A DNA stretch of 64,000 bases. It comes from Halorubrum sp. 48-1-W. Its GTDB lineage: Archaea; Halobacteriota; Halobacteria; Halobacteriales; Haloferacaceae. Below, one piece after another: positions 3,456 to 25,571 of the stretch; position 1 is the stretch's first letter, and the number at the start of each line of letters is the position of its first letter. Below the pieces are notes generated by a model, which was not told where the DNA came from, ran no database searches, and worked only from the letters and a program-made list of their open reading frames with translations. A program made the translations under genes and the position numbers. The stretch lies in the NCBI RefSeq assembly GCF_003287355.1, contig NZ_QMIM01000003.1:124001-188000 (forward strand). Direction: 5' to 3'.

Positions 3456-3575
3456 ATGACGTAGTCTCTGCGTGGGACTAAACAGCTTTCTCCGATCACC
3501 GAACTCATAACCTATGCATAGCCATTTGGGGTACCTCCTACCGATGATTGTGCGTGGCGATGCGACGCACATTTG

Positions 3576-5464: not shown

Positions 5465-5503
5465 TATCGCAACGAACCGGCCGATCGAAGTTAAAAGTAT
5501 TTA

Positions 5504-6498: not shown

Positions 6499-7773
6499 TC
6501 AGGTGGATGCTAATATTGATTGAAGCAGGCTCTGAACGTTTTGTTCTAGATTTTGAATGAATTCTTCATACGACCCGACGTCCACAGCTGTGGGTAATTC
6601 AGCCACCGTAAGCGTGTATTGATCTGCAACCTGAGCTTGAGTTTCATTATCTCCCTGACAATCTGGATAAAACAGCATCCCGGGTGAATCACGAGCGAGC
6701 ATATATGACGTCATTTGGTAGAAATCCGCATTCGATGGCGTGCTAGTTTTCCACTTCGCGTCGCCAGTGAGACGAACGGTTTCAGCCTCATCATACACAG
6801 TTACGTCTGGCTTGAGTGTCATCTTGTGCTTCCCAGCGGTGAGAAGTGATTGTGTTTTTTCTTGGGGTTCCACTCGCCATCCTTCATATTCAGACAAAGT
6901 CGTACGAATAGCACGTTCAACGGCATTCTCGAAAACCGTGTTCATGTTTACGAGCATTGCGAACGACGCACTGGAGCCTGCCTCGAGTTCACCGATGAAT
7001 GAGTTCTCAATAACTAGTCGAGCCAGCCGAAGGACGTCCTCGTAGTGCTCGGACAAGCGATTGAGCTGAATTGATTTCACCTCTTCCAACGTGACGGGTG
7101 TCAACGTTATTCGGCGACGGAGCAATTGCTGATGCTGCCGGAGCGAGCGGGATATTGTAGAATCTGATACAATACCTAATAAAATAGATGTTGCGTAGAG
7201 GATAGAACGATTAACAATTGTATCGTGAGTGAGCTCATCGTACGTACATTCGAACGCTGTTGGAGTAGGGGGTTGACGTTGGATTTGTCGCTGGATATTT
7301 ATCCGACCACGCAGTCGTTGTTCAGATCCACTCATACGGCGATAATCTGTTTGCAGGCCTCGACTCAGAACACGCCGCAGCTCAGCTTCATACAACGCAC
7401 CGAGCGCATCAAGGAATGTTTGACCTTGCCGGAATGGTGTTTGTGACTCAAATGTTGTTGCCGTCGTATTGTGGGCGTATCGAAGCAAATAAAGTAGATT
7501 TGTCCCTGCAGCTTTGGGACGTATCTGAATCGTTGGGCCGTCGCGCAATGATACGACACCAACATATTGAGTCGCAGTTAGAATGGCGTCCCCTTCACGA
7601 TTATAACGTAGCCTGATACGCTCTCCTTGGCGGTCATCTCCACCGTTTACCTCTTGTTTGAGCATCCGGTCAGCGGCCTCACTCAACTCAAACGGATCTG
7701 AAGCTTCGTACTCGCCAAGCTCGATATCCGCCTCAAACACATCGTCTTCAGTGATCGGAACGGAACTAGCCAT
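6499..7773 (-). CDS. mcrC: McrC-type nuclease subunit of McrBC
   Basis: A 424-aa protein. The N-terminal half is the predicted McrB-binding domain typical of McrC. The C-terminal half holds a PD-(D/E)XK core: LKPDVTVYDE followed by LTGDAKWK and then DFYQMTSYM, all in McrC order. McrC is the nuclease that cuts DNA when the McrB motor converges on methylated sites. Its ATG overlaps the McrB stop codon (TAATG), so the two are translationally coupled and should be made in a fixed ratio. A 140-base gap separates it from the restriction gene downstream. Confidence 0.9.
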   Translation of the reverse strand: MASSVPITEDDVFEADIELGEYEASDPFELSEAADRMLKQEVNGGDDRQGERIRLRYNREGDAILTATQYVGVVSLRDGPTIQIRPKAAGTNLLYLLRYAHNTTATTFESQTPFRQGQTFLDALGALYEAELRRVLSRGLQTDYRRMSGSEQRLRGRINIQRQIQRQPPTPTAFECTYDELTHDTIVNRSILYATSILLGIVSDSTISRSLRQHQQLLRRRITLTPVTLEEVKSIQLNRLSEHYEDVLRLARLVIENSFIGELEAGSSASFAMLVNMNTVFENAVERAIRTTLSEYEGWRVEPQEKTQSLLTAGKHKMTLKPDVTVYDEAETVRLTGDAKWKTSTPSNADFYQMTSYMLARDSPGMLFYPDCQGDNETQAQVADQYTLTVAELPTAVDVGSYEEFIQNLEQNVQSLLQSILAST

Positions 7774-10304
7774 TAGTCGGAGTCATTGACAGAGGCGAGA
7801 TCGAAGGATTCGACGAATGTCTCTAATGCCGTCGATAACGTCTCGGCATTGAATGATCTGATCTCTTGCCGATCCCAATCGAATAACTCCTCTCCATCAC
7901 CAGTAAATAGACTCTCTCGTATCCGGTCATACTGGCCGAAGAGGTACTCTTCGAGCAGGGGGAGAATTTCGAATCGCCACGTATCGACAATTTCCTCGTC
8001 TGAAGCGATTTCGAACAGGAACGAATGACCGATTTGTTTTCCTCGTCCAAGATCTGGTTCGGATCGGATTCGGGCGTTGAGCTCGTGGATTGCGATTAGA
8101 GATTTACAGAGGAGGTGATCTTCTGCCCCTGGTGTACTTGCATTAGTTAACACATCTGCCCACGATCCAAGGCCATACTCTTCCCGGAGTAATCGGAGAT
8201 TGGGTGGAAACCCGAGGAAGCGGAATCGTCGCCGAATCGCCGCATCAACGAGTGCAATCGAACGATCAGCGGTGTTCATCGTTCCGATTAGAAAGAGGTT
8301 CGGTGGAATCAAGAACCGATCTCCAGAATGGGCAAGTGAAACCGTAGTCTGGTTCGACCCATCCAACCGTTTATCCGCCTCTAGAGCAGTGATCATTTCT
8401 CCGAATATCTGGGCGAGATTTCCTCTGTTGATCTCGTCAATAATCAAAACGTATCGAGGCGGTGTATCGTCATCATCGGTGGCATAATACTCTTGACGCG
8501 CTCGCTCAGCAAATTCTAGGAAGACTCCGGGTTCCTCATCGTACACCACTGTCCCATCTGCGTTCGTGTCAACACTTAATCCCTCTATAAAGTCCTCGTA
8601 CGTAAACGACGGGTGGAACGTCACTGTCTCTAGCTGGCCGTTATGAGGATCGACGTCGTCCTGATCGTTAATCCACCAATGGGCGAACTGCTTTGCTTTA
8701 TATGTCTTTCCCGTACCTGGGGGCCCATAGAAAACCATTTGGCCGATATCCGTGAGCTGCCGAGCAATCTCTTCACCTCGTTCTGGGCGATCTTTGGCTT
8801 CTAATGGACCCATCTCATCATCGAATGAGAGCGTCTGTGTCGGAGCCTCTATTTCGTAGTTCTCGTTTAGGATAGTGCGGATCTTTACTCGGCTCATGTT
8901 TGGCGAAACACCGCTACGGCTCTGGAGTTCACGAAATAGAACGAAGAATAGCGTTTCCGCTGGCCCGATGTGATTAGTTCGCCCGATCGTGAGTCGCTCT
9001 GCCACCCTCGAAAACTTTTCTTCTCGATCAGTATAGACGCGCTCGATAAGTTTGCAGTGTGTAGCTTCTGTTTCAGTCAGTTCCGCGTTGGGTTGGACAC
9101 TCGAGAGTGAAGTGGTGAACGCTTCGATGATTGACTCGGCAAATATATTGAGAAACCAAGAACGGTCGCGATCTGCAAAGGGTAGTCGAGTCCGGACATC
9201 TACGACTGCCTCGGTTACCGAGTCATATTGATCGACAGCAGGTGGCTGGTCAATGCTCCAATAATGTCGTTTGGCGTCGTCCAGTAGCTCAGGCAGCTCC
9301 GCGAGACAGATGTAGAGCAAATCGAGAGGACATTCTGTAAAATAGGCCCCCTGAGCGAGCTCGAAATTTTTGTCGTACACAAGTCCGTCGTGATCATCGT
9401 AAACCGTCTGAAGACGCTCGCGATAGTCTTCATTTTGGAGGAGGTCTTCATCGATATCAATCGGGTCATCGAATTCCCGAAACTGTCCAAGCGGTAGGAA
9501 GTACCCCTGACCACGGGCCTCCGGCTCCCAAGAATCGTCTGGCGGCCCTTCAAAATCCGTCTGGAGTGTTGATGTGACGGTTGACACTCCCTGCAGCTCA
9601 CGAGTATCTTTTAAAATATGTAGGACGAGATCACCAACCTCGGGCTCACGGAGAGTTTCATAGATCTTGTCGCCGCTTTTAGATTCGCTTCGTGAGAAGA
9701 CTGCAGTACCCAGTGCGAATTTTTCTCCAGGTTGTTTGTACGGTTTATCCTCAATCGATGTGAGTTCGATGAAGACTGAAGGGTCCTCCCGTGTGGTCTG
9801 CAGCATCTCCTCAACAGACCCATATTCGTCGTGAACTTTCTGAACTGCTTCTGGTTGTGGGATAATGGTCCGTGTTAGGGCTTCTTGATCCAGATTGAGT
9901 AGATCGTGAAGACGATAGCTTTCCAATTCGATTGGAACCGGAATATTGAGCCAGAGTATGGTTTCGCTGAATTCTTGGCTGGACTCGGTGTCAGTTGATG
10001 TCCGCTCAGCGACCTGGGACATCAGCTGCTCGGTGAGTTCCCGTGATGGGTCTATTCGATGTATTTGAGCGGCCCATGTGTACCGGTTACTCCCGCGATA
10101 GAACAACACAAAATCGCCTTTATTAATGGATGCCGGATCGACGTGATCTGCTTCCGGAACTGGCCATGCGTGAACCATGGAATCGTCCATTGGCAGCACT
10201 GGCGATGAAATTTCTTCCTGCTCGACACCTCGATGGACGAGTTCGTCAAATACCGCCTGTTCAGTAGGACTCGTAGCAGATGCGAGAACGATACCCGATG
10301 ACAT
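7773..10304 (-). CDS. mcrB: McrB-type AAA+ GTPase with EVE-like N-terminal reader region
   Basis: An 843-aa protein. The C-terminal AAA+ module carries Walker A FYGPPGTGKTYKAK (about residue 521), Walker B/signature VLIIDEINRGNLAQIFGE and the McrB-specific GTMNTADRSIALVDAAIRRRF block, so it is a GTP-driven translocase partner of McrC. The first 330 residues contain two beta-rich stretches (GDFVLFYRGSNRYTWAAQ, and GDLVLHILKD with LQGVSTV) that fit EVE/PUA-like modified-base readers rather than the Escherichia coli McrB N-domain. The gene starts 53 bases after the methylase-like gene and is coupled to mcrC. The reader type suggests that the recognised modification may not be 5-methylcytosine in the E. 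coli context; this is inference. Confidence 0.88.
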   Translation of the reverse strand: MSSGIVLASATSPTEQAVFDELVHRGVEQEEISSPVLPMDDSMVHAWPVPEADHVDPASINKGDFVLFYRGSNRYTWAAQIHRIDPSRELTEQLMSQVAERTSTDTESSQEFSETILWLNIPVPIELESYRLHDLLNLDQEALTRTIIPQPEAVQKVHDEYGSVEEMLQTTREDPSVFIELTSIEDKPYKQPGEKFALGTAVFSRSESKSGDKIYETLREPEVGDLVLHILKDTRELQGVSTVTSTLQTDFEGPPDDSWEPEARGQGYFLPLGQFREFDDPIDIDEDLLQNEDYRERLQTVYDDHDGLVYDKNFELAQGAYFTECPLDLLYICLAELPELLDDAKRHYWSIDQPPAVDQYDSVTEAVVDVRTRLPFADRDRSWFLNIFAESIIEAFTTSLSSVQPNAELTETEATHCKLIERVYTDREEKFSRVAERLTIGRTNHIGPAETLFFVLFRELQSRSGVSPNMSRVKIRTILNENYEIEAPTQTLSFDDEMGPLEAKDRPERGEEIARQLTDIGQMVFYGPPGTGKTYKAKQFAHWWINDQDDVDPHNGQLETVTFHPSFTYEDFIEGLSVDTNADGTVVYDEEPGVFLEFAERARQEYYATDDDDTPPRYVLIIDEINRGNLAQIFGEMITALEADKRLDGSNQTTVSLAHSGDRFLIPPNLFLIGTMNTADRSIALVDAAIRRRFRFLGFPPNLRLLREEYGLGSWADVLTNASTPGAEDHLLCKSLIAIHELNARIRSEPDLGRGKQIGHSFLFEIASDEEIVDTWRFEILPLLEEYLFGQYDRIRESLFTGDGEELFDWDRQEIRSFNAETLSTALETFVESFDLASVNDSD

Positions 10305-10357
10305 ATTCTACTCCGGCGTCCCCCATCTACATAATTCGTGGGTTCACTGAAACGTTC

Positions 10358-12955
10358 TCAACGAGATACTTTCTCAGCGCCCAGATAGTTATTATATTCG
10401 TGGAGCATAGCGTACGTGAATACGAAGAACGCGAGTAAGAGTGTCTCTGCGTTTGTTTCTGGATCATTGAGAAGCCGCCCGTGAGCAATCTCGTTACGTT
10501 TCTTCCGAACATCCTGCATCACCTCCCATAGGTCTCCACTGAAGAATTCGTCAATGAGGAGCTTCAATCTCAAGGGCTTCCAGTCTCCTCGGTATCTAAA
10601 TTTGAGCACGGAATTTCCTTCTTCATTCTCACGGTACGCAACATCACCACCTGTATTCTCGACGTAGTCTTGGAGGATCCCCTCAAATTGAGAGGCGGTT
10701 CCACCCATAAATGACCAATAGCGGTCTTCAGAATAGACAAGGAGAAGTTCCTCAATGAGTTGTTCGCGAGTCTCAAAGAGATCAGCTGTACGAAATGTCT
10801 TCTCAAGTTGCCGAATCATATTTTCGTCAACTAGTTCGAAGATAGTGCCGTCTCCAGCAAGTACAGAGCGAAGTCGTTCAACTTCATCTGAATATCCCTC
10901 TAGCTTCGAGAGGGGTGAAACAGCCTCATACGTTGCTGACACTGTGCTTCGATCTGATTCCTCGAGCCCCTGTAAAATTGCTGCTCGGGCTGTTGTGCGT
11001 GACTCATGTGTGTCGTACGGACTAAGAGACGATAACCGATCAAATGTCTCATCAGATAATCGCGGTAGAATAATTGGCAATCTTTCTAACGGTCGAATCT
11101 GTACTCTGACATATTCTGCATCCAAGTTCGGGAATTGATTATCGCTAAGACGTTGGTAGAGCGGTGTATTAAGAAGAATTTGAAGAGCATTCGGGGAATA
11201 TTGGGCTTCACATTTGATGCCAACTACTGAATTATTATAAAGAACTTCATCAGCATCTACATTAACGGAATGCCACTTGACCGGACTGGTTATTGCTCCT
11301 GTTACGAGATCTGGATTCACCATCGGGATTGACCGTGGTAAAACTCCTCTCCTTCTTGACTGGTTTTCCACAGCCGGAGCAAGGGTTTCCGATACATATG
11401 ATGCGGCTGCGGTATCTATCGAGGAAAGAGCCTCGCTCACCTCCCCAAAATTCTCTTCATCAAGCCCATTTTCATCGACAAATTCACGCAGGTCGAATAG
11501 GTACCAACCGATATCCCTGTCCGTTATTTCGCTCTTATCAGCCGGCAGATCTTTTATTACTGGTGTGAAGAATCTCTCCGAAATATTTGATTCGGTTTGC
11601 TCTGACTCCTCAAAATAGAAAATTCGATTTTGACCAGTAACCATACCGGTGGCGATATTCTGAGTGACGTCTTCGAGTGTCGGGTACTGCTGGGTGAAAA
11701 GCGGAGCAGCACCTGGTGCTGAGAGGAGGGTCTGAATGGTAGTACTTGGTAGTTGCCGGTCAACAGTCGTGCCCTCAGCGAAATCGTGACGTTCAGCGGA
11801 CGAGGGGGCATGAACTGCTCCACACATCTCATTCACCCCTCCGAATCTACTGAGATTCACTATTCCAAGGTCATCGTCCTCCTCTGTGCGTTCAACACAG
11901 ATCATCATTGGCTCAACTCCGATGACAGAGAATGCCGATTCTGGAAGCTTAACCAACCGTTGTAGCTGAACGCCTTCTGGAAGAACGTTTTTCCGAAGAT
12001 TGCGAAGTCCATGTGAAGGCAGAATAAAACATCCTCTACCGGATTCACTCAAGGTTCTGCATCCACCGCGTACAAACTGATGCTCGAGTCGTCTGATCTC
12101 GGAAATACGCTGATTCGATTGATCAGCGGATGACTGGCCGTCCATCCTCCCGATTGGGGGGTGGCCAAGTACACAATCAAACCCCTCTTCTGGAAACTGT
12201 GAGATGTCGGTCTCTGGGGTACGCTGGTCAAAGGTTTGTTGTGGATCGGTATATGCACTTTCAACTATTTCGAAGAAATCTGAACAAAGGATGTGGCTCG
12301 CAGGAACTCCCATTTCACCAGAACGCGACTGAGTAATGCCACATGCAAGTCCATTATTGTCTACTCCCCATACCTGGGAAGCTTCTTCAATTTCATCTAC
12401 ACCGGCAATAAGGAGTTCACCACTGCCTGTTGTAATGTCGATCAAGGAGGCTCGTTCCCCGGCACTGACCCAATTTGCAGCGATCTGTGCAACATTTTTG
12501 GGAGTATAGTAGGTTGTTAGATTAGCGGAGTAAGCGCTTTTGAGAAGCTCAATTGCATCATTTCTCTCGATTTCTGAAAGATATGTCTCGGGGAGAGGTT
12601 CAGTACGAAGCGTATCGTGGTAGATGCTCCGGACAATAGGTGCAAATTCTGGGAGTTGAATCCCTCCCACGTACTCAGGGAGATATGAGATATCGAAGTT
12701 TGACCGTGTACCTTGGATGGCGAGTACGGTGCCCTCAATTGAAACAAGAACATAATCGACAGCACTGAATTCGTTCCTAATTTCGTGTAACTGGGAGTCA
12801 TATCCTCTTTGATCGGCTGGACCTGTCGATGACCAAGAATGGACGATGAGGAGAGTGTATTCCCCATCAATCAATAACACTCCATCGGTGAGTTCGGAGA
12901 TACGTGCCTCCTCTGTTACTTCTTGAAGGGATTCTTTGAGGTTGAGTAGTGCCAT
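10358..12955 (-). CDS. Degenerate N6-adenine methylase fused to a HEPN-like C-terminal domain
   Basis: An 865-aa protein. Residues 1-120 are an unassigned N-domain. TYYTPKNVAQ (about 148) and IDITTGSGELL (172-182) are the entry and motif I of HsdM/Eco57I-type adenine methylases. The expected NPPY/F catalytic motif reads GHPPIG at 264-269, so the catalytic Asn is His. Residues about 450-660 resemble a target-recognition region. The final ~170 residues are helical and contain RNEIAH (820-825), which fits the R-x4-H motif of HEPN RNases and toxins. The gene heads the minus-strand McrBC operon (53-base gap to mcrB). I infer a SAM- or DNA-binding sensor with a possible RNase effector rather than an active methylase. 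A simple divergent type I methylase is the alternative. Confidence 0.65.
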   Translation of the reverse strand: MALLNLKESLQEVTEEARISELTDGVLLIDGEYTLLIVHSWSSTGPADQRGYDSQLHEIRNEFSAVDYVLVSIEGTVLAIQGTRSNFDISYLPEYVGGIQLPEFAPIVRSIYHDTLRTEPLPETYLSEIERNDAIELLKSAYSANLTTYYTPKNVAQIAANWVSAGERASLIDITTGSGELLIAGVDEIEEASQVWGVDNNGLACGITQSRSGEMGVPASHILCSDFFEIVESAYTDPQQTFDQRTPETDISQFPEEGFDCVLGHPPIGRMDGQSSADQSNQRISEIRRLEHQFVRGGCRTLSESGRGCFILPSHGLRNLRKNVLPEGVQLQRLVKLPESAFSVIGVEPMMICVERTEEDDDLGIVNLSRFGGVNEMCGAVHAPSSAERHDFAEGTTVDRQLPSTTIQTLLSAPGAAPLFTQQYPTLEDVTQNIATGMVTGQNRIFYFEESEQTESNISERFFTPVIKDLPADKSEITDRDIGWYLFDLREFVDENGLDEENFGEVSEALSSIDTAAASYVSETLAPAVENQSRRRGVLPRSIPMVNPDLVTGAITSPVKWHSVNVDADEVLYNNSVVGIKCEAQYSPNALQILLNTPLYQRLSDNQFPNLDAEYVRVQIRPLERLPIILPRLSDETFDRLSSLSPYDTHESRTTARAAILQGLEESDRSTVSATYEAVSPLSKLEGYSDEVERLRSVLAGDGTIFELVDENMIRQLEKTFRTADLFETREQLIEELLLVYSEDRYWSFMGGTASQFEGILQDYVENTGGDVAYRENEEGNSVLKFRYRGDWKPLRLKLLIDEFFSGDLWEVMQDVRKKRNEIAHGRLLNDPETNAETLLLAFFVFTYAMLHEYNNYLGAEKVSR

Positions 12956-13206: not shown

Positions 13207-16065
13207 ATGAGTATTGACACAACCCAACTTCTACCGGGAACAGTTATTCGCAATCGCAACCGACTTTGGCGGGTTGATGCGGTTGATGGCGACGAAATCA
13301 CGGCAACCGCTCTTGATGGACCGACAGCAACACATCGGTTCTACGCGCCGGTAGAGAATATCACCGAAGGGAGCCTCCCTGCGCCCGATACTTCGAAGAT
13401 GGGGAATCCCCAATTTCAGGACCTTCTGACTCAGTCAAATCGGCTTTCCATGCTGCATGGCACAGCCCCACTAATGAGCCTTCAACGTTCACGGGTGATC
13501 CCGACTGAGTACCAGTTGACACCCGTCGTGATGGGACTTGATATGCCTGCAGTACGGCTTTTATTGGCTGACGACGTCGGTCTCGGGAAAACGATTGAGG
13601 CAGGGTTAATTACGAGTGAGCTCCTCGCTCGTAATCGCGCAGAGCAAATTTTGGTAGTTACGCCGGCCAATCTCCGAGACCAATGGCGAGAGGCGTTCAA
13701 GTACTTCTTCCACATTGATGCCGAAATAACAAGCCGCCGTAACCGGAAGTCGATGGAAAAGGACGTTCCACCAGGAACCAGTGTCTGGGAGTACTATTCG
13801 AAACATATCGTCTCTATTGATTACGCGAAGCAGGCCCACATTCGCGGTCAAATCCTAAGTCAAGATTGGGATCTAGTGATTATCGACGAAGCCCATCAGG
13901 CAGCCCGTCCTCACACTTCGTCAGCTAGTCAAACGCCATCGAAACAACGCTGGGAATTTGCCCAGGACATCACCGACGCAACGACACATACACTACTACT
14001 TACAGCGACGCCGCATAACGGCTACACCGATAGTTATGCGAGCCTTCTGCGGATGGTGAATTCTGAAATCGTCTCTGGGGATGAACATAATCCGTCGATA
14101 GATCGCGATATCGCGAAGCGTCACGTCGTCCAGCGACGTCGTGAAGATGTCGAACAGTGGTTTGGTGATGAAGCACAGAATCCCTTCCCGGAGCGAGATC
14201 AGGATACTGTCGAGGTGACACCGACTGATTACGAGAAAAAAGCGTATGACGCAGTTCGGGAATACGGGGATACACTCGTCGAAGCTGCAAAGAAATCCGA
14301 TAATCGGACACTCGCCCAGTGGACCGTCGTTCACTTCCTCAAGCGTGCCCTGTCCAGCCCAGAGGCACTGCGGCGTTCTCTCAAGAATCGACAAGATAAG
14401 ATTGAGACGCGCTTGGAAGAGCTAGGCACGGACGACGATGATATCACTGAGAATGCTGGCATTTCAGAAGGATTAGCTCAGGCGAACGCACTTGATAATG
14501 ATCCTGGTGAAGACTACTCCGAATCGGAACTGGGCGATCGAGTTGAACGAGCTGTTTCTGGCGACCGTGCGGCTATCGAGATGGAACTCGAAACGTTAGA
14601 GAAGACCCTAGCAGCTGCCGAAAAAGTGACCAAGAGTCGCGACAGTAAACTCCAACAGTTGTTGACACAGACCCTGCCTGCGAGATTTACGAGTGGTGGG
14701 ACGATCATCTTCACAAAGTACGTTGATACGTTGGAGTATCTAGAAACCCGAATTGGGGAGATGCTCGAATCGGACTATCCTGATGTTGAGCTCTATACTC
14801 TGTATGGGGAGCTCAATGAAGCGGAGCGCCACGAGCGTTTCCAGCAGTTTGCTGACGCAGATCGTGGCGTTCTGGTTGCGACGGACGTTATCAGTGAAGG
14901 GATGAACCTCCAGTACGCGGCTAATCAAGTTATCCACTACGAACTCCCGTGGAATCCTAATCGGCTTGAACAGCGGAACGGGCGTGTCGACCGCTACGGC
15001 CAGCATGAGGATATCGTCTATATTCGAACGATGGTGGTGGACGATCCGATGGATCGTACCGTCCTCACAAAGCTCATCACAAAGGCCGAGGAAATCCGCT
15101 CGGAATACGGCTTCTCACCACCGTATCTGGGGGATGATGACGGCATTTTGCAATTGCTCGATCCCGATGAGTTGGATACGATTATGCCACAACAGCGGTT
15201 AGGGGACTTCACCTCGGAGAGTACAGAAGAGAGCCAAGAGGGGGCCTTCGATGATGAGGTTCTCGAGCGAATCAAGGATGAATCGTTCTATAATCATAGT
15301 GAAGTCGATCTCTCCGAAGTCCGTCGTCGGCAGGAAGAAACGCAGGAGATGCTGGGTGGGCCAGATGCAGTCGAGGAGTTTGTGAAGAGCGGACTCAATC
15401 TATTCGGCTGTTCGATCGAAATGAAGTCGGACGCTACCTACGCGATCAAGGTTACCAGTGATGAACTCCGGGGCCCTGACATTGAAGACGAATACGAGCG
15501 CGTATCCTTTGATCCGGAGCGGACGGCCGAAGAAGGCGACTTGGAAATGCTGGATATTGCCCATCCGCTGGTCCAGCAGCTTATCGATGCTGTCAAAGAG
15601 GTCGCGTTGACCAGTGATGATCGATATGGTCGGACAGCAATGCGTGGAACAGACGTCGTCGACGAACCGGTTGCCCTCTACACGGTAAAGGTTCGATATT
15701 TCGCCCACACGGGCGAAGACCCGACGGTGATGGAAGAACTGCTCCAGCTCGCACTACCGTTGTACGGAGAGGATCCGCTTTCGGAGCAACAGCTTGAAAA
15801 ACTGATTCACACGGATTCGACTGCTGCAACCCGGACCAAACAAGAGTGGCAGCGTGATCTCAGAAATGCGATCGAGCATGACCAGCGCGAAATGGCGGTC
15901 ACGCGTCGTGCTGACGAACGTCGGCAGGAAATAGAAGAAGAACGCGGTCAGATGCGCGAAAAATTAGAAGATGCCGGATACGGAGCTTCCATGACTGGTA
16001 TTGATAACCTCTCGGTTGCGAGTACTGACCTGTTGACCATCGGTCTCTACTACCCTACACAATGA
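13207..16065 (+). CDS. SNF2-family helicase, DISARM DrmD-like
   Basis: A 952-aa SF2 ATPase. Walker A LLADDVGLGKTIEAG lies near residue 120, and the DEAH box VIIDEAHQAARP near 224. The C-lobe has IIFTKYVDTLEYLE, then GMNLQYAANQVIHYE and PNRLEQRNGRVDRYGQ near 580-600. These are SNF2/HepA hallmarks. The N-terminal 60 residues form a short beta domain, and the C-terminal 280 residues are largely helical and charged. Its stop overlaps the start of the next methylase gene by four bases (ATGA). A SNF2 ATPase of this size followed by a very large adenine methylase is the class 1 DISARM order (drmD-drmMI). The likely role is to translocate on invading DNA. Confidence 0.8.
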   Translation: MSIDTTQLLPGTVIRNRNRLWRVDAVDGDEITATALDGPTATHRFYAPVENITEGSLPAPDTSKMGNPQFQDLLTQSNRLSMLHGTAPLMSLQRSRVIPTEYQLTPVVMGLDMPAVRLLLADDVGLGKTIEAGLITSELLARNRAEQILVVTPANLRDQWREAFKYFFHIDAEITSRRNRKSMEKDVPPGTSVWEYYSKHIVSIDYAKQAHIRGQILSQDWDLVIIDEAHQAARPHTSSASQTPSKQRWEFAQDITDATTHTLLLTATPHNGYTDSYASLLRMVNSEIVSGDEHNPSIDRDIAKRHVVQRRREDVEQWFGDEAQNPFPERDQDTVEVTPTDYEKKAYDAVREYGDTLVEAAKKSDNRTLAQWTVVHFLKRALSSPEALRRSLKNRQDKIETRLEELGTDDDDITENAGISEGLAQANALDNDPGEDYSESELGDRVERAVSGDRAAIEMELETLEKTLAAAEKVTKSRDSKLQQLLTQTLPARFTSGGTIIFTKYVDTLEYLETRIGEMLESDYPDVELYTLYGELNEAERHERFQQFADADRGVLVATDVISEGMNLQYAANQVIHYELPWNPNRLEQRNGRVDRYGQHEDIVYIRTMVVDDPMDRTVLTKLITKAEEIRSEYGFSPPYLGDDDGILQLLDPDELDTIMPQQRLGDFTSESTEESQEGAFDDEVLERIKDESFYNHSEVDLSEVRRRQEETQEMLGGPDAVEEFVKSGLNLFGCSIEMKSDATYAIKVTSDELRGPDIEDEYERVSFDPERTAEEGDLEMLDIAHPLVQQLIDAVKEVALTSDDRYGRTAMRGTDVVDEPVALYTVKVRYFAHTGEDPTVMEELLQLALPLYGEDPLSEQQLEKLIHTDSTAATRTKQEWQRDLRNAIEHDQREMAVTRRADERRQEIEEERGQMREKLEDAGYGASMTGIDNLSVASTDLLTIGLYYPTQ

Positions 16066-19000
16066 GTTCACAAACCTCTACTTCGAGTTCGGCGACCCGA
16101 GGACATCGCGAGACATCGTTCATCGAACCCAGCGGCGGCCTTCTCACGGAGCAACTCATCTACAAGCTACGCGATGAATCGTGTAGTGAGGATGCTGTAC
16201 AACCGCAGACCTTCGCACATCCTGGTGAGTCTACCCCGACTACTGAAGCTGAACTCGAAGGCCGTATTGGGGAAATCTGGGAAGACCTCCAGGAGCGCTG
16301 GGACGAGGTCACCCGAGGGTACGAACTCTATGCGATGGATGTCTCAGAGGCACGTACTCAATGGATGCTCAAGCTCTTCGAGGCACTTGGCTTCGAGCCA
16401 GCATACCAACACTCGAATTTGGTAGCTGGTAAAATTGAGGCTAATCTCTCACATCTTGGATGGGAACCTCGCGAATCAGTTACTGCTGATGCTGAAGGGC
16501 CGAATGCGACGCCGCCTGTTCTGCATACCGTTCGCCCGGACGAAGACAATCCACTTGATGATGGGAATCACCGCGGTGCGGAAGGACGAAAGCAGAGTCC
16601 TCATGATGAACTGCAGCGGTATCTCAATTCAAATGACGATATCCAGTGGAGTATTGTCACCGATGGACTGAAATTGCGACTGGTTCGAGATTATTACCAT
16701 ACGTATACTCGTGGGTATGTTGAATACGACCTCGAGAACATCTTTACTGAACGAAACTACGACGACTTTCGCGCACTATACCGGCTTTGTCACGCTTCAC
16801 GATTTACCCCTCCTGAGGACGAAGACGAGGACGACCCACCGATTGAGCAGCTATATCAGGTTGCGCTATCGACGGGTGTAAAAATCGGCCAGGATCTCCA
16901 GTCCAATGTTATCAGTGCCATCGAAACGCTCGGCACTGGATTGCTAACTTCTGAGATTCGAGAAGCTCTGAGAGAGGGTGGAGAAGAAGAGGCCAAAGAA
17001 TACTACCAAGAAGTCCTGCTAATTGTGTACCGCCTCCTGTTCCTCCTCTATGCAGAACAGCGAGGAATGATGGCCTCTCGTGAAAGCATATATACTGAAG
17101 AATATGCAGTTACGAATCTGCGTGAGAAGGCCGAAACGCGCCGTAGCACCAAGGACGACAACACCGACCTTTGGCACGGATTGCAGATCACTTTCCGTCT
17201 AGTTGAGGAGGGGAATGACGAGCTTGATGTCCCCTGCTACGATGGGATGCTCTTTGATTCGGAACGGCTCGAATGGATATCAGAAAGCGAGTGTCCAAAC
17301 GACGCTCTACTAGATGCAATCGAGGATTTAACTCTCATCGAACAAGAGGGAACTCGGCAGCGGATCTCGTACGCTGACCTCGGGGTCGAAGAGATCGGGT
17401 CCGTCTATGAGAGTCTTCTCGAATTCACACCGAGGCTTGCGACTGAAATCACCGAACTGGAAGATCGGACTGTTTCCCGTGGGGAATTCTATCTATACGA
17501 CCGAGGAACCGAGCGAAGAGAGACTGGGAGCTACTATACCGATCCTGGGCTGGTTCGAGAACTCGTTCAGAGCTCGCTCAAGCCTGTTGTCGAAGACCGT
17601 CTTGAAGACGCTAACACCGCTACCGAACAAGAAAACGCTCTTTTCGATATTACGGTCTGTGACCCCGCGAGTGGAAGTGGTGCGTTTCTGATCGCTGCAA
17701 ACAATTTCTTGGCACAGCGACTTGCACGCATTCGATCTGACAGCGAATATCCGCCTGAAGATGAGGTTCGTGAGGCACGTAGAGATGTCCTTCAGCATTG
17801 TATCTATGCGGTCGACCTCAATCCGATGGCTGTTGAACTGGCGAAAGTCAGTCTCTGGATTAATTCGGCCGTAGAGGACAAGCCTCTGAATTTTCTTGAC
17901 CACCACATCAAATGTGGGAACTCTCTGATTGGAACTAATTCCGAGCTCCTCGAAGGCGAGTTTCCCGTGGATGCATACGAAACATCTGGCGGGCGTGACT
18001 GGCACGTTGGTAATGAGATACGGAAACGGGTCCGGAAAGAAAACAAAGAGCGGTCAAAGGATTCCTCCGAATGCTCGCTTCAGGAGTGGGGTGCGAGTAA
18101 GGAACAATACGTAGACTTGGCTGAACGGCTTGATGCGATTGAAGAAGATGACACGACAGACGTAGAAAAAAAGAAGCAGTTGTACGATGAACTCCGGCAG
18201 TCTGAGGCATTCCAGAAAGAGAAACTAGCGTATGATATCTGGACAGCAGCGTTTTACTGGCCGATGGATGACTCTGCGAGTGAGTACCCATCTCCTTCAA
18301 CTATAGAAAAACTACGCAGAAACCCCCATCCGGATAGCGAGACGCTCCAAGATCTCAAAGAGCGGGCGACTCAAATTGCGGATCAGCAGAAGTTCTTCCA
18401 TTGGGAACTGGAATTCCCTGAGATATTTCATAACAGCGATGGCGGTTTTGATTGTATCCTTGGCAATCCGCCATGGGAAAAAATCAAAGCTGAGCAAAAG
18501 GAGTGGTTTGCTGGCAAACGTGAGGATATTGCCACATCAACATCAAAGAGTCATCGCACGAAATTAATCAATCAACTTCAAGAGGAAGATCCAGATCTCT
18601 ATCAGGCTTGGAAACAGGAAAAAGAAAATTCAGAGAATGCTTCTAAGTTCATTAGAGAGTCGGGTCGGTTCCCGCTGTCTGGTACTGGTGATACGAACAC
18701 ATATCCCGTATTTACAGAGCTCTGTGGGATTGAAATATTAGGTGATACAGGACGATCTGGTATTGTGGTGAAAACAGGCGTTGCTACCGACTATTATACA
18801 CAGGACCTGTTTTCCAAATTGGTGAACGAGAATAGACTTGTGTCATTATATGACTTTGTCAATAAGCGGAATTTATTCCCTGATGTAGCCACTCGTGAAA
18901 GATTCTGTTTACTTACTATGACTGGAATCGAGAATACGGTTCCTGAGTTCGAATTCTCATTCTTCAATTGGACTCTTGATGAATTGCACGAAGAGAAGAG

Positions 19001-20114
19001 CAAATATCGATTAACTGCCTCAGATATCCGGACAATCAATCCTAATACAAATAACTGTCCTGTACTCCAAACAAAAAAAGACAGAGATGTTACGGTATCT
19101 CTCTATTCTGAACATCCGATATTGGTTAATGATGTTCAGGATGAGAACACGTGGGGAATCTCTTATCACCGAATGGTGGATATGACGAACGACTCTAATT
19201 TATTCTCTGATAATACTCTAGAAAACCTCAAATCAGAAGGGTTTGAACTTGACAGATTGAACAGATTTGTGAGCGGTGGCGATCGATATTATCCACTTTT
19301 AGAAGCCAAGCTGTTTAATCAATATGACCACAGGTTTTCAACATTTGAGGGGATTCCAGAAGAAAAGAAATTCGGTAGGAGGGCTGGGACAAACAAGCCT
19401 TCAGCTGATCGAAAGTCAGATACTAATTTTGAATCTCTACCCCGTTACTGGATGAGTGATTCTGATTTCCAGAATATACTATCTGAGATTGACTGGAATA
19501 AAGATTGGTTATTTGCATTCCGCAATATTGGTGGAGCGGCTAGCAATAGCCGGACAGCAATTGGAACTATTCTCCCACGTTATCCTTGTGGTAATAGTGC
19601 ACCAATATTGACATTTGATGGGGGTGATTTAGCTGAGAAACCTGTCTTGTTCACAACTGTATTCACCTCATTTGTTTTTGATTTTGCTCTTCAGCAGTCT
19701 CTTGGTGGTGCTAACTTCAATTATTACATTCTCAAACAACTCCCGATGCCCACACCAAAAACTCTAGAACAGACAGATATTGAATTAGAAGGAGAAAAAA
19801 CATCTCTTCGAGAATTCCTTCTGACACGGGGCGGGGAATTGATCTGGACCTCTCATTCACTGGACTCCTTAGGTGAGGAAATTTCATCTACTGTTGGAAA
19901 CGGGCCGTTCGAATGGAATGAAGAACGTCGGAGTACACTCCGGGCAGAAATCGATGCAGCTGTTGCTAAAGCCTACGATCTTTCTCGTGAAGAATTCGAA
20001 TATATCCTTGATTCATTCGAGATTCTGGAGGAGATCGAGCAAGAGGAATATGGAGAATACAAGCGAAAAAAGGAGTGTCTCAACGCTTTCGGCAAGTTGG
20101 AGATCCAGTTCTGA
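16062..20114 (+). CDS. Large N6-adenine methyltransferase, DISARM DrmMI/Eco57I-like
   Basis: A 1350-aa protein overlapping the SNF2 gene by four bases. Motif I ITVCDPASGSGAFLIAA lies near residue 532 and motif IV CILGNPPWEKIK near 801, both intact, so it should methylate adenine N6. The region before 500 is an alpha/beta extension seen in DrmMI and PglX-like enzymes. Residues about 810-1270 are the target-recognition region, and here the DNA is far poorer in GC than on either side (33% in the 60 bases from 19201, by count). This suggests that the recognition region was swapped in. The product probably marks host DNA so that the rest of the system spares it. Confidence 0.82.
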   Translation: MSSQTSTSSSATRGHRETSFIEPSGGLLTEQLIYKLRDESCSEDAVQPQTFAHPGESTPTTEAELEGRIGEIWEDLQERWDEVTRGYELYAMDVSEARTQWMLKLFEALGFEPAYQHSNLVAGKIEANLSHLGWEPRESVTADAEGPNATPPVLHTVRPDEDNPLDDGNHRGAEGRKQSPHDELQRYLNSNDDIQWSIVTDGLKLRLVRDYYHTYTRGYVEYDLENIFTERNYDDFRALYRLCHASRFTPPEDEDEDDPPIEQLYQVALSTGVKIGQDLQSNVISAIETLGTGLLTSEIREALREGGEEEAKEYYQEVLLIVYRLLFLLYAEQRGMMASRESIYTEEYAVTNLREKAETRRSTKDDNTDLWHGLQITFRLVEEGNDELDVPCYDGMLFDSERLEWISESECPNDALLDAIEDLTLIEQEGTRQRISYADLGVEEIGSVYESLLEFTPRLATEITELEDRTVSRGEFYLYDRGTERRETGSYYTDPGLVRELVQSSLKPVVEDRLEDANTATEQENALFDITVCDPASGSGAFLIAANNFLAQRLARIRSDSEYPPEDEVREARRDVLQHCIYAVDLNPMAVELAKVSLWINSAVEDKPLNFLDHHIKCGNSLIGTNSELLEGEFPVDAYETSGGRDWHVGNEIRKRVRKENKERSKDSSECSLQEWGASKEQYVDLAERLDAIEEDDTTDVEKKKQLYDELRQSEAFQKEKLAYDIWTAAFYWPMDDSASEYPSPSTIEKLRRNPHPDSETLQDLKERATQIADQQKFFHWELEFPEIFHNSDGGFDCILGNPPWEKIKAEQKEWFAGKREDIATSTSKSHRTKLINQLQEEDPDLYQAWKQEKENSENASKFIRESGRFPLSGTGDTNTYPVFTELCGIEILGDTGRSGIVVKTGVATDYYTQDLFSKLVNENRLVSLYDFVNKRNLFPDVATRERFCLLTMTGIENTVPEFEFSFFNWTLDELHEEKSKYRLTASDIRTINPNTNNCPVLQTKKDRDVTVSLYSEHPILVNDVQDENTWGISYHRMVDMTNDSNLFSDNTLENLKSEGFELDRLNRFVSGGDRYYPLLEAKLFNQYDHRFSTFEGIPEEKKFGRRAGTNKPSADRKSDTNFESLPRYWMSDSDFQNILSEIDWNKDWLFAFRNIGGAASNSRTAIGTILPRYPCGNSAPILTFDGGDLAEKPVLFTTVFTSFVFDFALQQSLGGANFNYYILKQLPMPTPKTLEQTDIELEGEKTSLREFLLTRGGELIWTSHSLDSLGEEISSTVGNGPFEWNEERRSTLRAEIDAAVAKAYDLSREEFEYILDSFEILEEIEQEEYGEYKRKKECLNAFGKLEIQF

Positions 20115-20165
20115 ACTCATCTTTACTACCATAGAATTTTCCCTTATCGGTTTCATCCTGAGATA

Positions 20166-23100
20166 ATGGCATCACGTCTCAATCCCTTTGACGCCCTCGA
20201 CAGCGTTCAATCCTCCTACCGCTCCTACGTCGAGACCTTCCAGAACGTCGACGATGAGATCATCAACGCTTGGATCGAGAACCGAATCGAGACGGGTAAG
20301 GTACTGTGGAAGGAGCCGTTCGTCCAACTGAATCAGCGGTTCCAGTACGGCGACACCCTCGAAGAGTTCGTTGTAGACGGCAAACTCCACGAAGGTATTT
20401 TGGATGTATTCACCGACGTTGGCGGTGACCCCATCGAGCCATACAAACACCAGACTGAGGCGATTCAGTCCATCGAAAGTAGGAATAACACGATCGTCTC
20501 TACTGGCACGGGGTCGGGGAAGAGCTTCGCTTTCGGGATACCCATCGTCAGCCACTGTCTAGAAGCCAAAGAGCAGGGTGAGGATGGAATAAAGGCAGTC
20601 ATCATCTACCCGATGAACGCCCTGGCGAACTCACAGTATGAGGAATTCGCTGAACGCCTCGACGATTCTGGCCTCCGTCTCGGCCTCTATACTGGCGACA
20701 CACCCACAAATCCGGATAGTGAAGCCGAGTTCCTTCAGCAGTTTGGTCGGAAAGAGCCCTACGATTGTGAGGTTGTCTCTCGAGAAGAGCTTCGCGACGA
20801 TCCGCCGGACATCCTTATGACGAACTACGTTATGCTGGATTACATTCTGACACGGCACCAGGATAAGGAATTGTTCCCATCGCAGCACGAAGGTGTGTTA
20901 GAATATCTGGTTTTAGACGAGATCCATACCTATACTGGCCAACAAGGAGCTGACGTCGCTGCACTCATCCGGCGCCTTCGTGAGCACACCGACGCGGGGG
21001 ATGATCTCACCTGTATCGGCACCTCTGCGACGGTCCAGAGTGAGGAAGGGATCGACGCCGAACAAGAAATTGCAGACTTCTCGGAGCGGATCTTCGGTAT
21101 GTCTGTCGACGCGGATCACGTCATCGGTGAAACCCACTATGCGTTAGAATTCACCGGTGGGACACAGTTACCGGATTCAGTCGAAGTTACCGAGGCAGAC
21201 ATCCAACGATTTGACGGTTCGGCAGACGAAGCGACCAAACTCGCGGAAAAACTCACCGAGCGTTCGCTGAGTAAAGAAGAAACAAAGACAGCTGCGTCGC
21301 TGGGTGATGTACTGCTTGCTCATCCAACGGTCGCGTTTCTTGACGAAGAATTGAGTGAGCAGAGTCAACAGGTCGCGCCTGCTGATTCAACAGAGGATGA
21401 AGACGATTCGCTCGTCGCTCAGTATCGTGAGGAATACCGACCGAGTGCAACGCCACAAGAAGCACGACGAGAACTGGAGGCAGCGCTGCTCGCAGGCACA
21501 GTTGGGACGACTGATGTCCAGGGAGAACAACAGCCGATTTTCGTCCCAAAGCTCCACTCCTTCTTTAGCCAAGGATCGGGATTAGTGGCCTGCCTCACAC
21601 CGGAAACGCTTGAAGACGACGACCCCCACCTAAGTGACGCCGGCGACATCCAGTGTCGTCACTGCGCTAATAAGTATGAACGCAATCGGAACGCGTTCCC
21701 GCTCTCGTTCTGCCGAGCTTGCGGACAGGATTACTATACGATCGTTCGGACAGATGATGGGCACCTGGCACCGCGGGAGGTCAGTGATCTCAGTGTTGAG
21801 GACAACGAGACGGCTGGATACGTCATGCGTGGAGAGTGGAATCGCGACGAAGTAACACTCCCTGCTGGTTGGTTCGATGATGATGGCACTCTTCGCGATA
21901 CTTGGGTTGACGCGGTGCCCGAGCCTGCAACTTACTGTCCCCAACACAACCGTCTAACAGACGGGCATCAAGATAGCGGTCAACTCCGCTGTGGATGCTT
22001 CGCGACTCAAGGGATCAAGATCATGTGGACCGAAGCGGAGTTCCTCTTCTGTGCGAACTGCGGTGTGAGTCACACACGTATGGGCCGTGCTATGGAGCTA
22101 TCAAAGATGTTCAAGTTCGGCACTGTCGGTAGATCCACGGCGACGGACGTTCTCATCGGGTCGACGATGCAGGAACTGCCTGACACCCAGCAGAAAACGA
22201 TCGCGTTCAGTGACAATCGACAGGATACTGCGCTTCAGGCGGCTCACTTGAATAATCTCTATCAGCGGGTCAAGTTCCGCCGAGCACTATATGAAGCTCT
22301 CAAATCTCATGACCGTGTTAGCCTTGCAGATATTGGAAATCGCACGTTTGATGCGCTGGAAGAGAATGACGCGCTCCCCAATAAACTCCAGACCACTCGC
22401 TTCGGCGTACCTGACGACGAGAAGGCACGATTTAGCGAATATCTACAGTTCCATGTGCTACTTGAACTTCGGAAAAGCCAGCAAAGAGGCCAACAGAGTC
22501 TTGAGGACGTTGGCCTCCTCGATGTTGAATATGAGCACCTTGACGATCTGGCTGAAATTGATGAGGTCTGGGAGGGCATCCCCGAATTAGAAACTGCTGA
22601 TCCTGAAGTTCGACATGAGTACTGCAAAGCATTCCTCGACCTGTTCCGACGAACCGCTGCAGTCAATCATAGTATCTTCACTAACTTCGGCGACTTCCGA
22701 CGAAACACAATCAACAATCTCCATGAAGAGACAAAGTTCCACAAACAGCAGTACTTCAGGTTCCCCGAAGGATTCAGCGATACTGCAGACACGAGCGGGA
22801 CAGAGCAGATCCATCGGCTAACGGACTGGCGGTCCCGGCACGTAAAGTGGACGACGCGAGCCTTCGATGTTGACACGGACCGTGCTGCCGAAGTAATTAA
22901 TGGGGTCGTTGATCTTCTGAGTGATGAAAACGAGTTGCCCCTGCTGGTCGAAGATTCTGTGTATCGTGGACGGGCAGCCTATATGCTCAACCCGGGCTTC
23001 GTCAAGCTCGTTGCCCATGATCCGAGCGATGTCTCTGTCTGTCCGAAATGTAAAACGGTGGTGACCCGTGACCGACTGCGCCTCTGCCTCAACAGTAGTT

Positions 23101-25457
23101 GTGGGAACGTCGTTCCCGAACCAACAGATCTCCGGGATTCGTACTTCTATGATCTCTATTCACTTCCTTTCGACAAGGCCGTGGATATCCTTGCTGCCGA
23201 ACATAGTGGTCAGATCGAAGGCGAACTCCGCAAGGAACTCGAGACGCGTTTCCGCGAAGACGACGATCTCAACACCATCGTCTGTACACCGACGATGGAG
23301 CTCGGAATCGACATCGGTGACCTGTCGAACGTGTTTATGAGGAACGTCCCACCGAATCCTAGTAACTACGCTCAGCGATCCGGGCGAGCTGGCCGGCAAA
23401 GTCAACCCTCTTTGGTTACCACGTTCTGTGGGAGTGGCTTCGGTCGTGCTTCCCACGACCAGTATTTTTACCAGCGACCTGAACGAATTATTGCCGGAGA
23501 AATCTCGCCGCCAACGTTCCTGCTGAACAACCAGGAGCTCATCAAGGCTCATATCAACGCTCTCGTGCTTGAAGTGATTGATTTCAAGCTTCAGGGAGAT
23601 ATTAGTGATATACTTGACATTCAACCCGGGGATGGCTATGAGATCTACGACAGTTATCGAGATGAACTCGAGACCGCTATCGCTCGCAACAGGACAGCAA
23701 TCATCGAGGCAGTAAAAAATGCATTCTATAGGGAACGACAGCACACTGAGTTCAGTGATTGGTTTTCTGAATCATATATCGAGCAACAGGTCGATGACTT
23801 CGTCGAAAACCTTGACGCCGCTTTCGACCCGTGGCGGATCGAATATACGCGATTAACTCGTGAGCGCCGCCGCCTAAATAAGAAACTGGGCGCTGAACGT
23901 GGAGAATATCTCGAACGTCAGGAACGGGATGCGATCGAGCGCCGACTTGAAGATATGCGAAATGGTGGAAAGCGATTCTACTCGTACCAGTACCTCAGAT
24001 CTCAGGGCTTCCTGCCTAATTACGGGTTCCCACGCTCGAACTGTACACTTGGATTCACGACCAAGGAGGATGACATCCAGCGGGACGAAGCTCAAGCAAT
24101 CCGTGAGTTTGCACCCGGTAATCACGTCTACTACCGTGGAGAGCGCCACGCAGTTCGGTACGCCCGTCCGAAAACCCGCGACGCTGAACCCGTCACCCGA
24201 CATAAAATCGTGTGCCCAGAGTGTGAGACGATACTGATGGGCGATGATGCTCAAGAGGCCGCCGGGTGTCCAGCCTGTGGCTACTCATTTGCTGGCGTTC
24301 ACACGAATCCGAATACGATGGAGCTCCCCGACCAGCGGGCATATCCAGAGGAGAACATTACGAGCGACGATGAAGAACGCCAGCGAGAAGGATACGATAT
24401 CACACAGTACTACGAGCGTCGGGATCCGACGGAGTATGCGCTAAATGGAGATGGCGTCTCGGCGCATGTCACGTATGAGTCGAACGCCCGCATTGTCACG
24501 GTAAACAGCGGCATTCGTGGCCGAGATGATGACGAGCTACAGGGTTTTGCACTTTGTACTGAATGTAACCGCTGGCTCACAAGTTATAGCCAGATCGACA
24601 GACACGTCGATGATGGCTGTTATGCCAACGCCGATGAGGAAGCGATTCGACAGGAGATCGAACTTTACACAGAAGGGGGCCATGACACGATTACCGTCAC
24701 CACGCCGCTCCCCGGCCATGTTGACCCTGATAACGCAGAATCCTTCTATCGCACTCTCAAGGAGGCTCTCTATCAGGGGGTTCTGGTTGAGTTCGATCTG
24801 GATGAGCAGGAGCTTTCAACATTCCTCAAACCCTCACCAGGTGAACACGGTGATCTTACCGTCGTAATCCATGAGACAAGTGAGGGCGGTGCTGGTGCGC
24901 TTCACGACCTTACGAATCCGGCTAAGCACCGATTTAATCGAGCGATACAGGAAGCGCTTGATGTGCTCCATGTCAACGACCCAGATGGTTGCGAGCGGGC
25001 CTGCTACGATTGCCTCATGTCTTATTACAATCAGCGCGAACATCCTCTGTTCGATCGGAATCTCGTCATTCCGTGGCTTCGTGCAGCACAGTCGATGTCA
25101 TTGGATTCGATAGCAAGTGACTCCGATTCAGATCACTTTGAGGAGCTCCTCGATGCCTGCGAATCCCAGCTTGAACGCAACGTTTTGGAAACAGTTCAGG
25201 ATGAAGGTTTCCAGCTCCCTGACGATGCTCAAAAAACGGTCTATGATGGGGATGAACCAATCGTCGAAGCGGACTTCTATTTCGAGGCAGATGGTCGGGC
25301 ACAACCGGTGATCGTGTTCGTTGACGGTCCAGTTCACGAGAAAGAACATGTGCGTCAGGCTGACGAGGAGAAACGGCAACGGCTTCTCAAAATGAATTAT
25401 CGTTATCTTAGTATCTCTGACCCTGCTGAGGTTCCTGAAGTCTGGGAAGGAATATAG
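20166..25457 (+). CDS. DEAD-box helicase / zinc / DUF1998 / Vsr-like nuclease fusion (DrmA-DrmB-like)
   Basis: A 1763-aa single protein, 51 bases after the methylase gene. The N-terminal helicase has STGTGSGKSFAFGIP (about 115) and LVLDEIHTYTGQQGAD (about 250). Zinc knuckles follow (CRHCANKY, CRACGQ, CANCG). The helicase C-lobe (VCTPTMELGIDIGD, YAQRSGRAGR) is near 1040-1080. A second zinc pair (CPECET, CPACGY) precedes a DUF1998/MZB domain (HETSEGGAGAL; CERACYDCLMSYYNQ near 1610). The last 100 residues (LERNVLETVQDEGF, IVEADFYFE, VIVFVDGPVHE) look like a Vsr/PD-(D/E)XK nuclease. In classical DISARM, DrmA (helicase) and DrmB (DUF1998) are separate, with a phospholipase-D nuclease DrmC; here helicase, DUF1998 and a different nuclease are fused. 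Druantia DruE is another long DUF1998 helicase and the main alternative family. Confidence 0.8.
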   Translation: MASRLNPFDALDSVQSSYRSYVETFQNVDDEIINAWIENRIETGKVLWKEPFVQLNQRFQYGDTLEEFVVDGKLHEGILDVFTDVGGDPIEPYKHQTEAIQSIESRNNTIVSTGTGSGKSFAFGIPIVSHCLEAKEQGEDGIKAVIIYPMNALANSQYEEFAERLDDSGLRLGLYTGDTPTNPDSEAEFLQQFGRKEPYDCEVVSREELRDDPPDILMTNYVMLDYILTRHQDKELFPSQHEGVLEYLVLDEIHTYTGQQGADVAALIRRLREHTDAGDDLTCIGTSATVQSEEGIDAEQEIADFSERIFGMSVDADHVIGETHYALEFTGGTQLPDSVEVTEADIQRFDGSADEATKLAEKLTERSLSKEETKTAASLGDVLLAHPTVAFLDEELSEQSQQVAPADSTEDEDDSLVAQYREEYRPSATPQEARRELEAALLAGTVGTTDVQGEQQPIFVPKLHSFFSQGSGLVACLTPETLEDDDPHLSDAGDIQCRHCANKYERNRNAFPLSFCRACGQDYYTIVRTDDGHLAPREVSDLSVEDNETAGYVMRGEWNRDEVTLPAGWFDDDGTLRDTWVDAVPEPATYCPQHNRLTDGHQDSGQLRCGCFATQGIKIMWTEAEFLFCANCGVSHTRMGRAMELSKMFKFGTVGRSTATDVLIGSTMQELPDTQQKTIAFSDNRQDTALQAAHLNNLYQRVKFRRALYEALKSHDRVSLADIGNRTFDALEENDALPNKLQTTRFGVPDDEKARFSEYLQFHVLLELRKSQQRGQQSLEDVGLLDVEYEHLDDLAEIDEVWEGIPELETADPEVRHEYCKAFLDLFRRTAAVNHSIFTNFGDFRRNTINNLHEETKFHKQQYFRFPEGFSDTADTSGTEQIHRLTDWRSRHVKWTTRAFDVDTDRAAEVINGVVDLLSDENELPLLVEDSVYRGRAAYMLNPGFVKLVAHDPSDVSVCPKCKTVVTRDRLRLCLNSSCGNVVPEPTDLRDSYFYDLYSLPFDKAVDILAAEHSGQIEGELRKELETRFREDDDLNTIVCTPTMELGIDIGDLSNVFMRNVPPNPSNYAQRSGRAGRQSQPSLVTTFCGSGFGRASHDQYFYQRPERIIAGEISPPTFLLNNQELIKAHINALVLEVIDFKLQGDISDILDIQPGDGYEIYDSYRDELETAIARNRTAIIEAVKNAFYRERQHTEFSDWFSESYIEQQVDDFVENLDAAFDPWRIEYTRLTRERRRLNKKLGAERGEYLERQERDAIERRLEDMRNGGKRFYSYQYLRSQGFLPNYGFPRSNCTLGFTTKEDDIQRDEAQAIREFAPGNHVYYRGERHAVRYARPKTRDAEPVTRHKIVCPECETILMGDDAQEAAGCPACGYSFAGVHTNPNTMELPDQRAYPEENITSDDEERQREGYDITQYYERRDPTEYALNGDGVSAHVTYESNARIVTVNSGIRGRDDDELQGFALCTECNRWLTSYSQIDRHVDDGCYANADEEAIRQEIELYTEGGHDTITVTTPLPGHVDPDNAESFYRTLKEALYQGVLVEFDLDEQELSTFLKPSPGEHGDLTVVIHETSEGGAGALHDLTNPAKHRFNRAIQEALDVLHVNDPDGCERACYDCLMSYYNQREHPLFDRNLVIPWLRAAQSMSLDSIASDSDSDHFEELLDACESQLERNVLETVQDEGFQLPDDAQKTVYDGDEPIVEADFYFEADGRAQPVIVFVDGPVHEKEHVRQADEEKRQRLLKMNYRYLSISDPAEVPEVWEGI

Positions 25458-25571
25458 AGTGATTTGGACATACGATTACTCCTGAAGATGGTATGACTGC
25501 CCCTTTCCCCCACCCAAACATCCTCCTGTCCTGGAACAATATTATGTCACAGGGATTTGTTTGCCTGTTGT

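Follow-up and report, generated by a model that had tools for sequence, protein, structure and literature searches.

Three adjacent genes of the haloarchaeon Halorubrum sp. 48-1-W raise the question of whether the archaea harbor an undescribed branch of the DISARM defence systems, or whether the genes belong to a system already known under another name. They lie in a stretch of 64,000 nucleotides (contig NZ_QMIM01000003.1, positions 124,001 to 188,000; hereafter the window). A preliminary description had presented them as a three-gene defence locus with an SNF2 helicase and a methylase like those of class 1 DISARM, and the open reading frames and Pfam domains were confirmed at the positions given in Table 1. 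ARMADA, described in 2025 (Bell et al. 2025, PMC12458937, preprint), combines a YprA-family helicase with a second helicase like BrxHII and a methylase like PglX, and was presented as the "missing link" that joins DISARM to Druantia; its type I has the order SNF2-methylase-YprA in many archaea, with an active Vsr nuclease at the C-terminus. Because gene content, gene order, domain order and phylogeny all match this published definition, we identify the locus as an ARMADA type I system of a Haloferacaceae archaeon, with the genes in A-B-C order, at a probability of about 0.92. The earlier proposal of a position between DISARM and Druantia stands, while membership of DISARM does not, the match being to ARMADA I. 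As the gene order and the Vsr fusion had already been published, the genes add a good new case to a known kind of system and are not an undescribed DISARM branch.

Table 1. Features of the three-gene locus and of the associated upstream genes (positions in the window)
Feature	Position	Strand	Product and remarks
armA	13207..16065	+	952 aa; BrxHII/RapA-like SNF2 helicase (ORF)
armB	16062..20114	+	1350 aa; PglX/DrmMI-like adenine methyltransferase
armC	20166..25457	+	1763 aa; YprA-family helicase, inserted Zn-binding modules, DUF1998/MZB, predicted C-terminal Vsr-like nuclease
DUF1998/MZB Zn-binding domain of ArmC	24756..25016	+	residues 1531-1617; PF09369 34.7 bits
predicted Vsr-like (EDxHD) PD-(D/E)xK nuclease domain of ArmC	25083..25454	+	about residues 1640-1763
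mcrC	6499..7773	-	424 aa; PF10117 E 2.8e-54; associated, not core ARMADA
mcrB	7773..10304	-	843 aa; AAA_5, NCBIfam McrB-like 127 bits; associated, not core
N6-adenine methylase between mcrB and armA	10358..12955	-	865 aa; N6_Mtase; associated, not core

The three genes are co-directional, with an overlap of 4 bp between armA and armB, and armC begins 51 bp past armB. The armA product contains the Pfam domains SNF2-rel_dom and Helicase_C, with Walker A (DDVGLGKT) at residue 122 and DEAH at 227. The armB product matches Eco57I/N6_Mtase and has the SAM motif DPASGSGAF at 534 and the catalytic NPPW at 802; its variable specificity half begins past about residue 750. In ArmC, the DEAD (residues 94-292), Helicase_C (1007-1077) and MZB/DUF1998 domains occur in a single protein, which agrees with the earlier view that functions of DrmA and DrmB are joined here in one chain. 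In the YprA family a single chain is the rule, and the split in DISARM is the exception (PMC12458937).

The helicase motifs of ArmC are intact (Walker A, TGTGSGKS; DEIH; SAT; QRxGRAGR), and 216 positions of the window protein are invariant across 16 ARMADA I proteins. Zn-ligand cysteines are invariant in these proteins at 516/519, 629/632, 1350/1353, 1368/1371 and 1609/1613/1616, and the CxxC at 516, 629, 1350, 1368 and 1613 would supply the Zn-binding modules expected as inserts in RecA2 and the OB region. The putative nuclease residues E1670, D1703, H1724 and D1733 are likewise invariant across the 16 proteins. This set, which we take to be the one named EDxHD and linked to Vsr and I-Bth0305I, is not conserved as a whole in Druantia III or BRIGADE, and MrfA lacks it. 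No Pfam match above threshold was obtained with the nuclease domain (last 120 residues) of the window protein, and the Vsr-like family REase_MTES_1575 matches two of six ArmC orthologues (best E 1.6e-4). An AlphaFold2 model of residues 1490-1763 has an overall pLDDT of 62, mostly 65-90 in the nuclease part, where the predicted order is alpha-beta-beta-beta-alpha-beta. Foldseek with this model returned weak matches, MrfA first (E 0.037) and the Vsr-like I-Bth0305I at rank 14 (E 0.28). The terminal Vsr-like domain noticed earlier is borne out by the invariant residues and the family matches, and the C-terminus of ArmC is, as in ARMADA I, a predicted active Vsr-type nuclease with a weak fold match. 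The lineage also has a synapomorphy, a BrxA-like helical insert that follows RecA1; at the corresponding position the poor model of residues 298-720 (mean pLDDT 40) has helices of low to medium confidence, and no Pfam family matched this region.

Among 293 genomes of the order, ArmC has a match at E 1e-50 in 12, the window genome included, and the spread is patchy; two of the 12 are fragments and one (G040, 27-29% identical) falls outside the clade. The order armA-armB-armC is kept in 11 of 11 other complete haloarchaeal loci and in a twelfth, from Natronococcus, in which the contig end cuts inside armA, and this recurrence excludes a chance arrangement. Among the named haloarchaeal relatives are Natribaculum breve, Natrinema gelatinilyticum, Haloferax marinum, Natronococcus sp. 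and a Halobacteriales MAG, and plasmid PL100 of Haloquadratum walsbyi C23 carries a relative locus. ArmA orthologues are 59-82% identical in haloarchaea and 30-38% in Thermus, Chroococcidiopsis, Rhodococcus and Deinococcus. The bacterial homologues of the trio are on plasmids, in the order A-B-C in Thermus and Chroococcidiopsis, with extra small genes within the cassettes, and C-A-B in Rhodococcus and Deinococcus.

A maximum-likelihood tree was built from 25 YprA-family proteins (1557 columns, LG+C20), using the MrfA-like protein of the same genome as outgroup. The window ArmC, 11 haloarchaeal and four bacterial ARMADA I proteins, representing both published gene orders, form one 100/100 clade, apart from Druantia III (100/100), ARMADA II (100/99) and BRIGADE (100/100); the tree leaves out DISARM and Dpd helicases and has long branches, and its deep nodes are limited in meaning. 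Support for the ARMADA I clade is firm. The preliminary description had staked its reading on ArmC not grouping with MrfA-like helicases whose relatives lack a methylase neighbour; ArmC is apart from MrfA in the tree, and the methylase neighbour is conserved. Loci L056 and L057, considered as DISARM anchors for the tree, were rejected for having a different helicase cassette. On a Halalkaliarchaeum plasmid (L052, 8800-17289), two hypothetical proteins and a YprA-type helicase of 1807 aa are encoded in one operon; this helicase takes a long branch beside Druantia III, and a methylase or SNF2 gene was not seen nearby.

Profile searches could suggest that the locus is a DISARM variant, namely class 1 without drmC and with drmA and drmB fused. 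The best PADLOC scores of ArmA are DrmD (392 bits) and BrxHII (311 bits), that of ArmB is DrmMI (347 bits) and that of ArmC is DruE3 (422 bits, against at most 49 for DrmA), but the library was a 2023 copy that predates ARMADA, and its labels are therefore those of nearest neighbours only. ArmA also reaches 428 bits with NCBIfam DISARM_DrmD, although this is under the curated cut-off of 610. Relatives of ArmC in the PDB are the long YprA-type helicases 9tu7 (2108 aa) and 9wae (1970 aa) and MrfA (6znp), with neither DrmA nor DrmB matched at E 0.001. DrmB was not found, the sole other MZB/DUF1998 protein genome-wide being the MrfA-like helicase on contig C18. The earlier statement that DrmC is missing holds for the locus, and the genome-wide search for PLDc_2 gave hits on contigs C10 and C69 only. 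A search of 99 haloarchaeal genomes with the PADLOC DrmA profile (E 1e-80) found no DrmA, but as no control gave a hit either, this result carries no information. In the published tree ARMADA is outside the DISARM/Dpd clade (PMC12458937), and the present tree is consistent with this. The exclusion of DISARM and Dpd is based on profile scores and on the lack of a DrmA or DrmB match in the PDB, and a DISARM variant is very improbable.

That ArmC is a DruE and the locus a Druantia system is scarcely credible, even if DruE3 is its best PADLOC profile and Druantia III is near ARMADA in the tree. The two fall in separate clades, neither DruH nor another Druantia partner was found, with a methylase and an SNF2 partner always present instead, and the Vsr-like C-terminus of ArmC has an intact EDxHD set that is absent from DruE of Druantia III. 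BRIGADE, a haloarchaea-only ARMADA/Dpd hybrid, shares the host group and has an ARMADA-like helicase, but it is marked by a 7-deazaguanine cluster, a PLD or PD-(D/E)xK nuclease gene and usually two YprA helicases. No 7-deazaguanine or tRNA-guanine transglycosylase genes were seen, nor a second YprA helicase or PLD nuclease near the locus. A real BRIGADE locus (L060), where a PLD protein and transglycosylase genes accompany two helicases, branches far from the window ArmC; this reading is refuted by gene content.

Within the ARMADA I locus, identity to the nearest relatives is 76-82% for ArmA and ArmC and 49-54% for ArmB. Residues 1-225 of ArmB are closest to the window's own subclade (up to 83%), residues 300-750 are closest to the other subclade (77-93% with L030, L032 and L034), and beyond about residue 750 the values range over 24-63% according to the partner. 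DNA comparison reveals the same break, with 73-76% identity to L030, L032 and L034 starting near position 16690, and G+C drops to about 0.40 in the 3' half of armB. As far as these comparisons indicate, armB has the pattern expected of allele exchange together with a fast-changing specificity half. In Natronococcus sp. A-GB7 (L006, 1990-9992), two tandem armB genes, 58% identical, lie between armA and armC.

McrBC is encoded divergently upstream of armA in six of six evaluable loci of the window subclade, directly beside armA in five of these and one gene away in the window. The intervening gene, for the 865-aa methylase, is present in the window only and missing there in relatives. McrC, McrB and this methylase (6499-12955, -) make up one apparent operon, and the C-terminal RNEIAHG of the methylase resembles, by eye, HEPN-type motifs. 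Earlier work had already linked McrBC with a DISARM-like cassette and with DNA methylases (PMC11090510, PMC12458937). ARMADA and the divergent McrBC might be one two-layer system in which unmodified DNA is the target of ARMADA and modified DNA that of McrBC, a reading that would extend the ARMADA I identity without contradicting it. The head-to-head position in all evaluable loci of the subclade and the earlier reports speak for such a unit. On the other hand, McrBC is absent from six of six other-clade haloarchaeal loci checked and from the bacterial ARMADA I loci (Thermus, Chroococcidiopsis, Rhodococcus, Deinococcus), and is therefore not needed for ARMADA I; linkage in one subclade may also reflect shared descent of one island. 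We consider the two-layer system doubtful. Equally tentative is the broader proposal that haloarchaeal ARMADA I and McrBC make a stable head-to-head defence unit and that ArmB is an exchangeable specificity subunit, which would retarget ArmA-ArmC by analogy with the specificity subunits of type I restriction; the recombinant allele in the window and the tandem armB pair in Natronococcus are cited in support of an exchangeable ArmB.

On the other side of the locus, armD (GajB-like with a RelE-like domain) is absent after armC, where the adjoining genes encode an AddB-like (1076 aa) and then an AddA-like (1238 aa) protein (25557-32500, +). AddAB was considered as an ARMADA accessory, like armD, and rejected: AddA occurs in 27 of 146 genomes (E 1e-100), none of the others bearing ArmC, and G006, which has no ArmC match, has a 91% identical AddA. 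In an empty-site comparison within the genus, both genes flanking the island have paralogues and do not map together, and a search of viral contigs with ArmC gave no match. Further observations concern the surroundings. A TaqI-like methylase (456 aa) lies beside a 284-aa ORF of no known family (4094-6358, -), possibly a type II restriction pair, and homologues of this methylase are found after armC, in divergent orientation, in L006, L007, L010 and L025. A 422-aa NucS_C-like protein (2367-3635, -) matches the PADLOC candidate family PDC-S11 (231 bits). Directly after armC in L027 (4173-13545) and L029 (4364-13784) there is a four-gene operon, possibly another uncharacterised YprA-type system, that encodes a DpdJ-like helicase (972 aa) and a type II-like methylase along with two proteins (607 and 697 aa) without PADLOC match. 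A 332-aa protein (37453-38451, +) has a full-length match to phrog_35116, of unknown function (E 2e-171), and is followed by the gene of a CcbP-like calcium-binding protein; an IS605 OrfB/TnpB-type gene (426 aa; 59594-60874, -) is located between two PAS-domain signalling genes.

Regarding function, the ARMADA II system of E. coli gives non-abortive protection for which all four genes are required; it needs the ATPase motifs of ArmA and ArmC and the NPPW motif of ArmB, and mutants in the SAM motif of ArmB or in Walker B of ArmD lose activity only in part (PMC12458937). The literature searched yielded no antiviral test of an archaeal ARMADA. Gene content, gene order, phylogeny and intact motifs are observed at the locus, whereas we infer the antiviral role in the host and each biochemical step of the following scheme, whose details we rate at about even odds. 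By homology with E. coli ARMADA II, the system would attack invading DNA directly while the cell survives. ArmB most likely lets the system tell self from non-self by marking or reading sites of adenine methylation, and the exchangeable C-terminal half of ArmB would set the sequence that is read. ArmA, being SNF2/RapA-like, most likely translocates on DNA or remodels it. ArmC most likely loads on unmarked or exposed single-stranded DNA and would move 3'-5', with the DUF1998 canopy as a ratchet, cutting unmarked DNA with its C-terminal Vsr-like nuclease in place of DrmC, the separate PLD nuclease of DISARM. Since the SAM-motif mutant of ArmB loses activity only in part (PMC12458937), the role given to methylation in this scheme is a proposal. 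The ARMADA II phenotype may not carry over to type I, because the type II system tested in E. coli has a fourth essential gene, armD, which type I lacks.

The locus is a clean, motif-intact archaeal ARMADA I, with relatives that include Haloquadratum walsbyi C23 and Haloferax marinum, the latter from a genus with good laboratory tools. Among the ARMADA systems met in the literature searched, only the four-gene type II of E. coli has been tested, so that an archaeal form with three genes could reveal whether armD is dispensable. The mosaic armB offers a handle on the role of the methylase in ARMADA and DISARM. Beyond its identity, the interest of the locus resides in the three-gene archaeal form, the pairing with McrBC and the possibly exchangeable ArmB.

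Compared with known systems, the locus shares with BRIGADE (L060) a haloarchaeal host and an ARMADA-like helicase, whereas BRIGADE has two helicases, a PLD nuclease and tRNA-guanine transglycosylase genes of its own, and armA and armB were not seen at L060. Druantia III (DruE), the nearest profile, is alike in its long one-chain YprA helicase with a C-terminal nuclease, but has a PLD nuclease and the partner DruH, and neither methylase nor SNF2 helicase. Class 1 DISARM has in common the DrmD-like SNF2 helicase, the DrmMI-like methylase and the functions of a YprA-family helicase; it differs in the DrmA/DrmB split and the PLD nuclease DrmC, and its helicase is distant by profile score. ARMADA type II (E. 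coli; L051 and L055), for which phage defence was shown, has homologous proteins in the same armA-armB-armC order and is distinguished by its own armD, a longer ArmC (2113 aa) and a separate clade. With ARMADA type I the window shares the three core genes, the A-B-C order found in archaea and cyanobacteria and the lack of armD; the divergent McrBC neighbour in the window subclade and the mosaic armB are the differences, and the core is unchanged.
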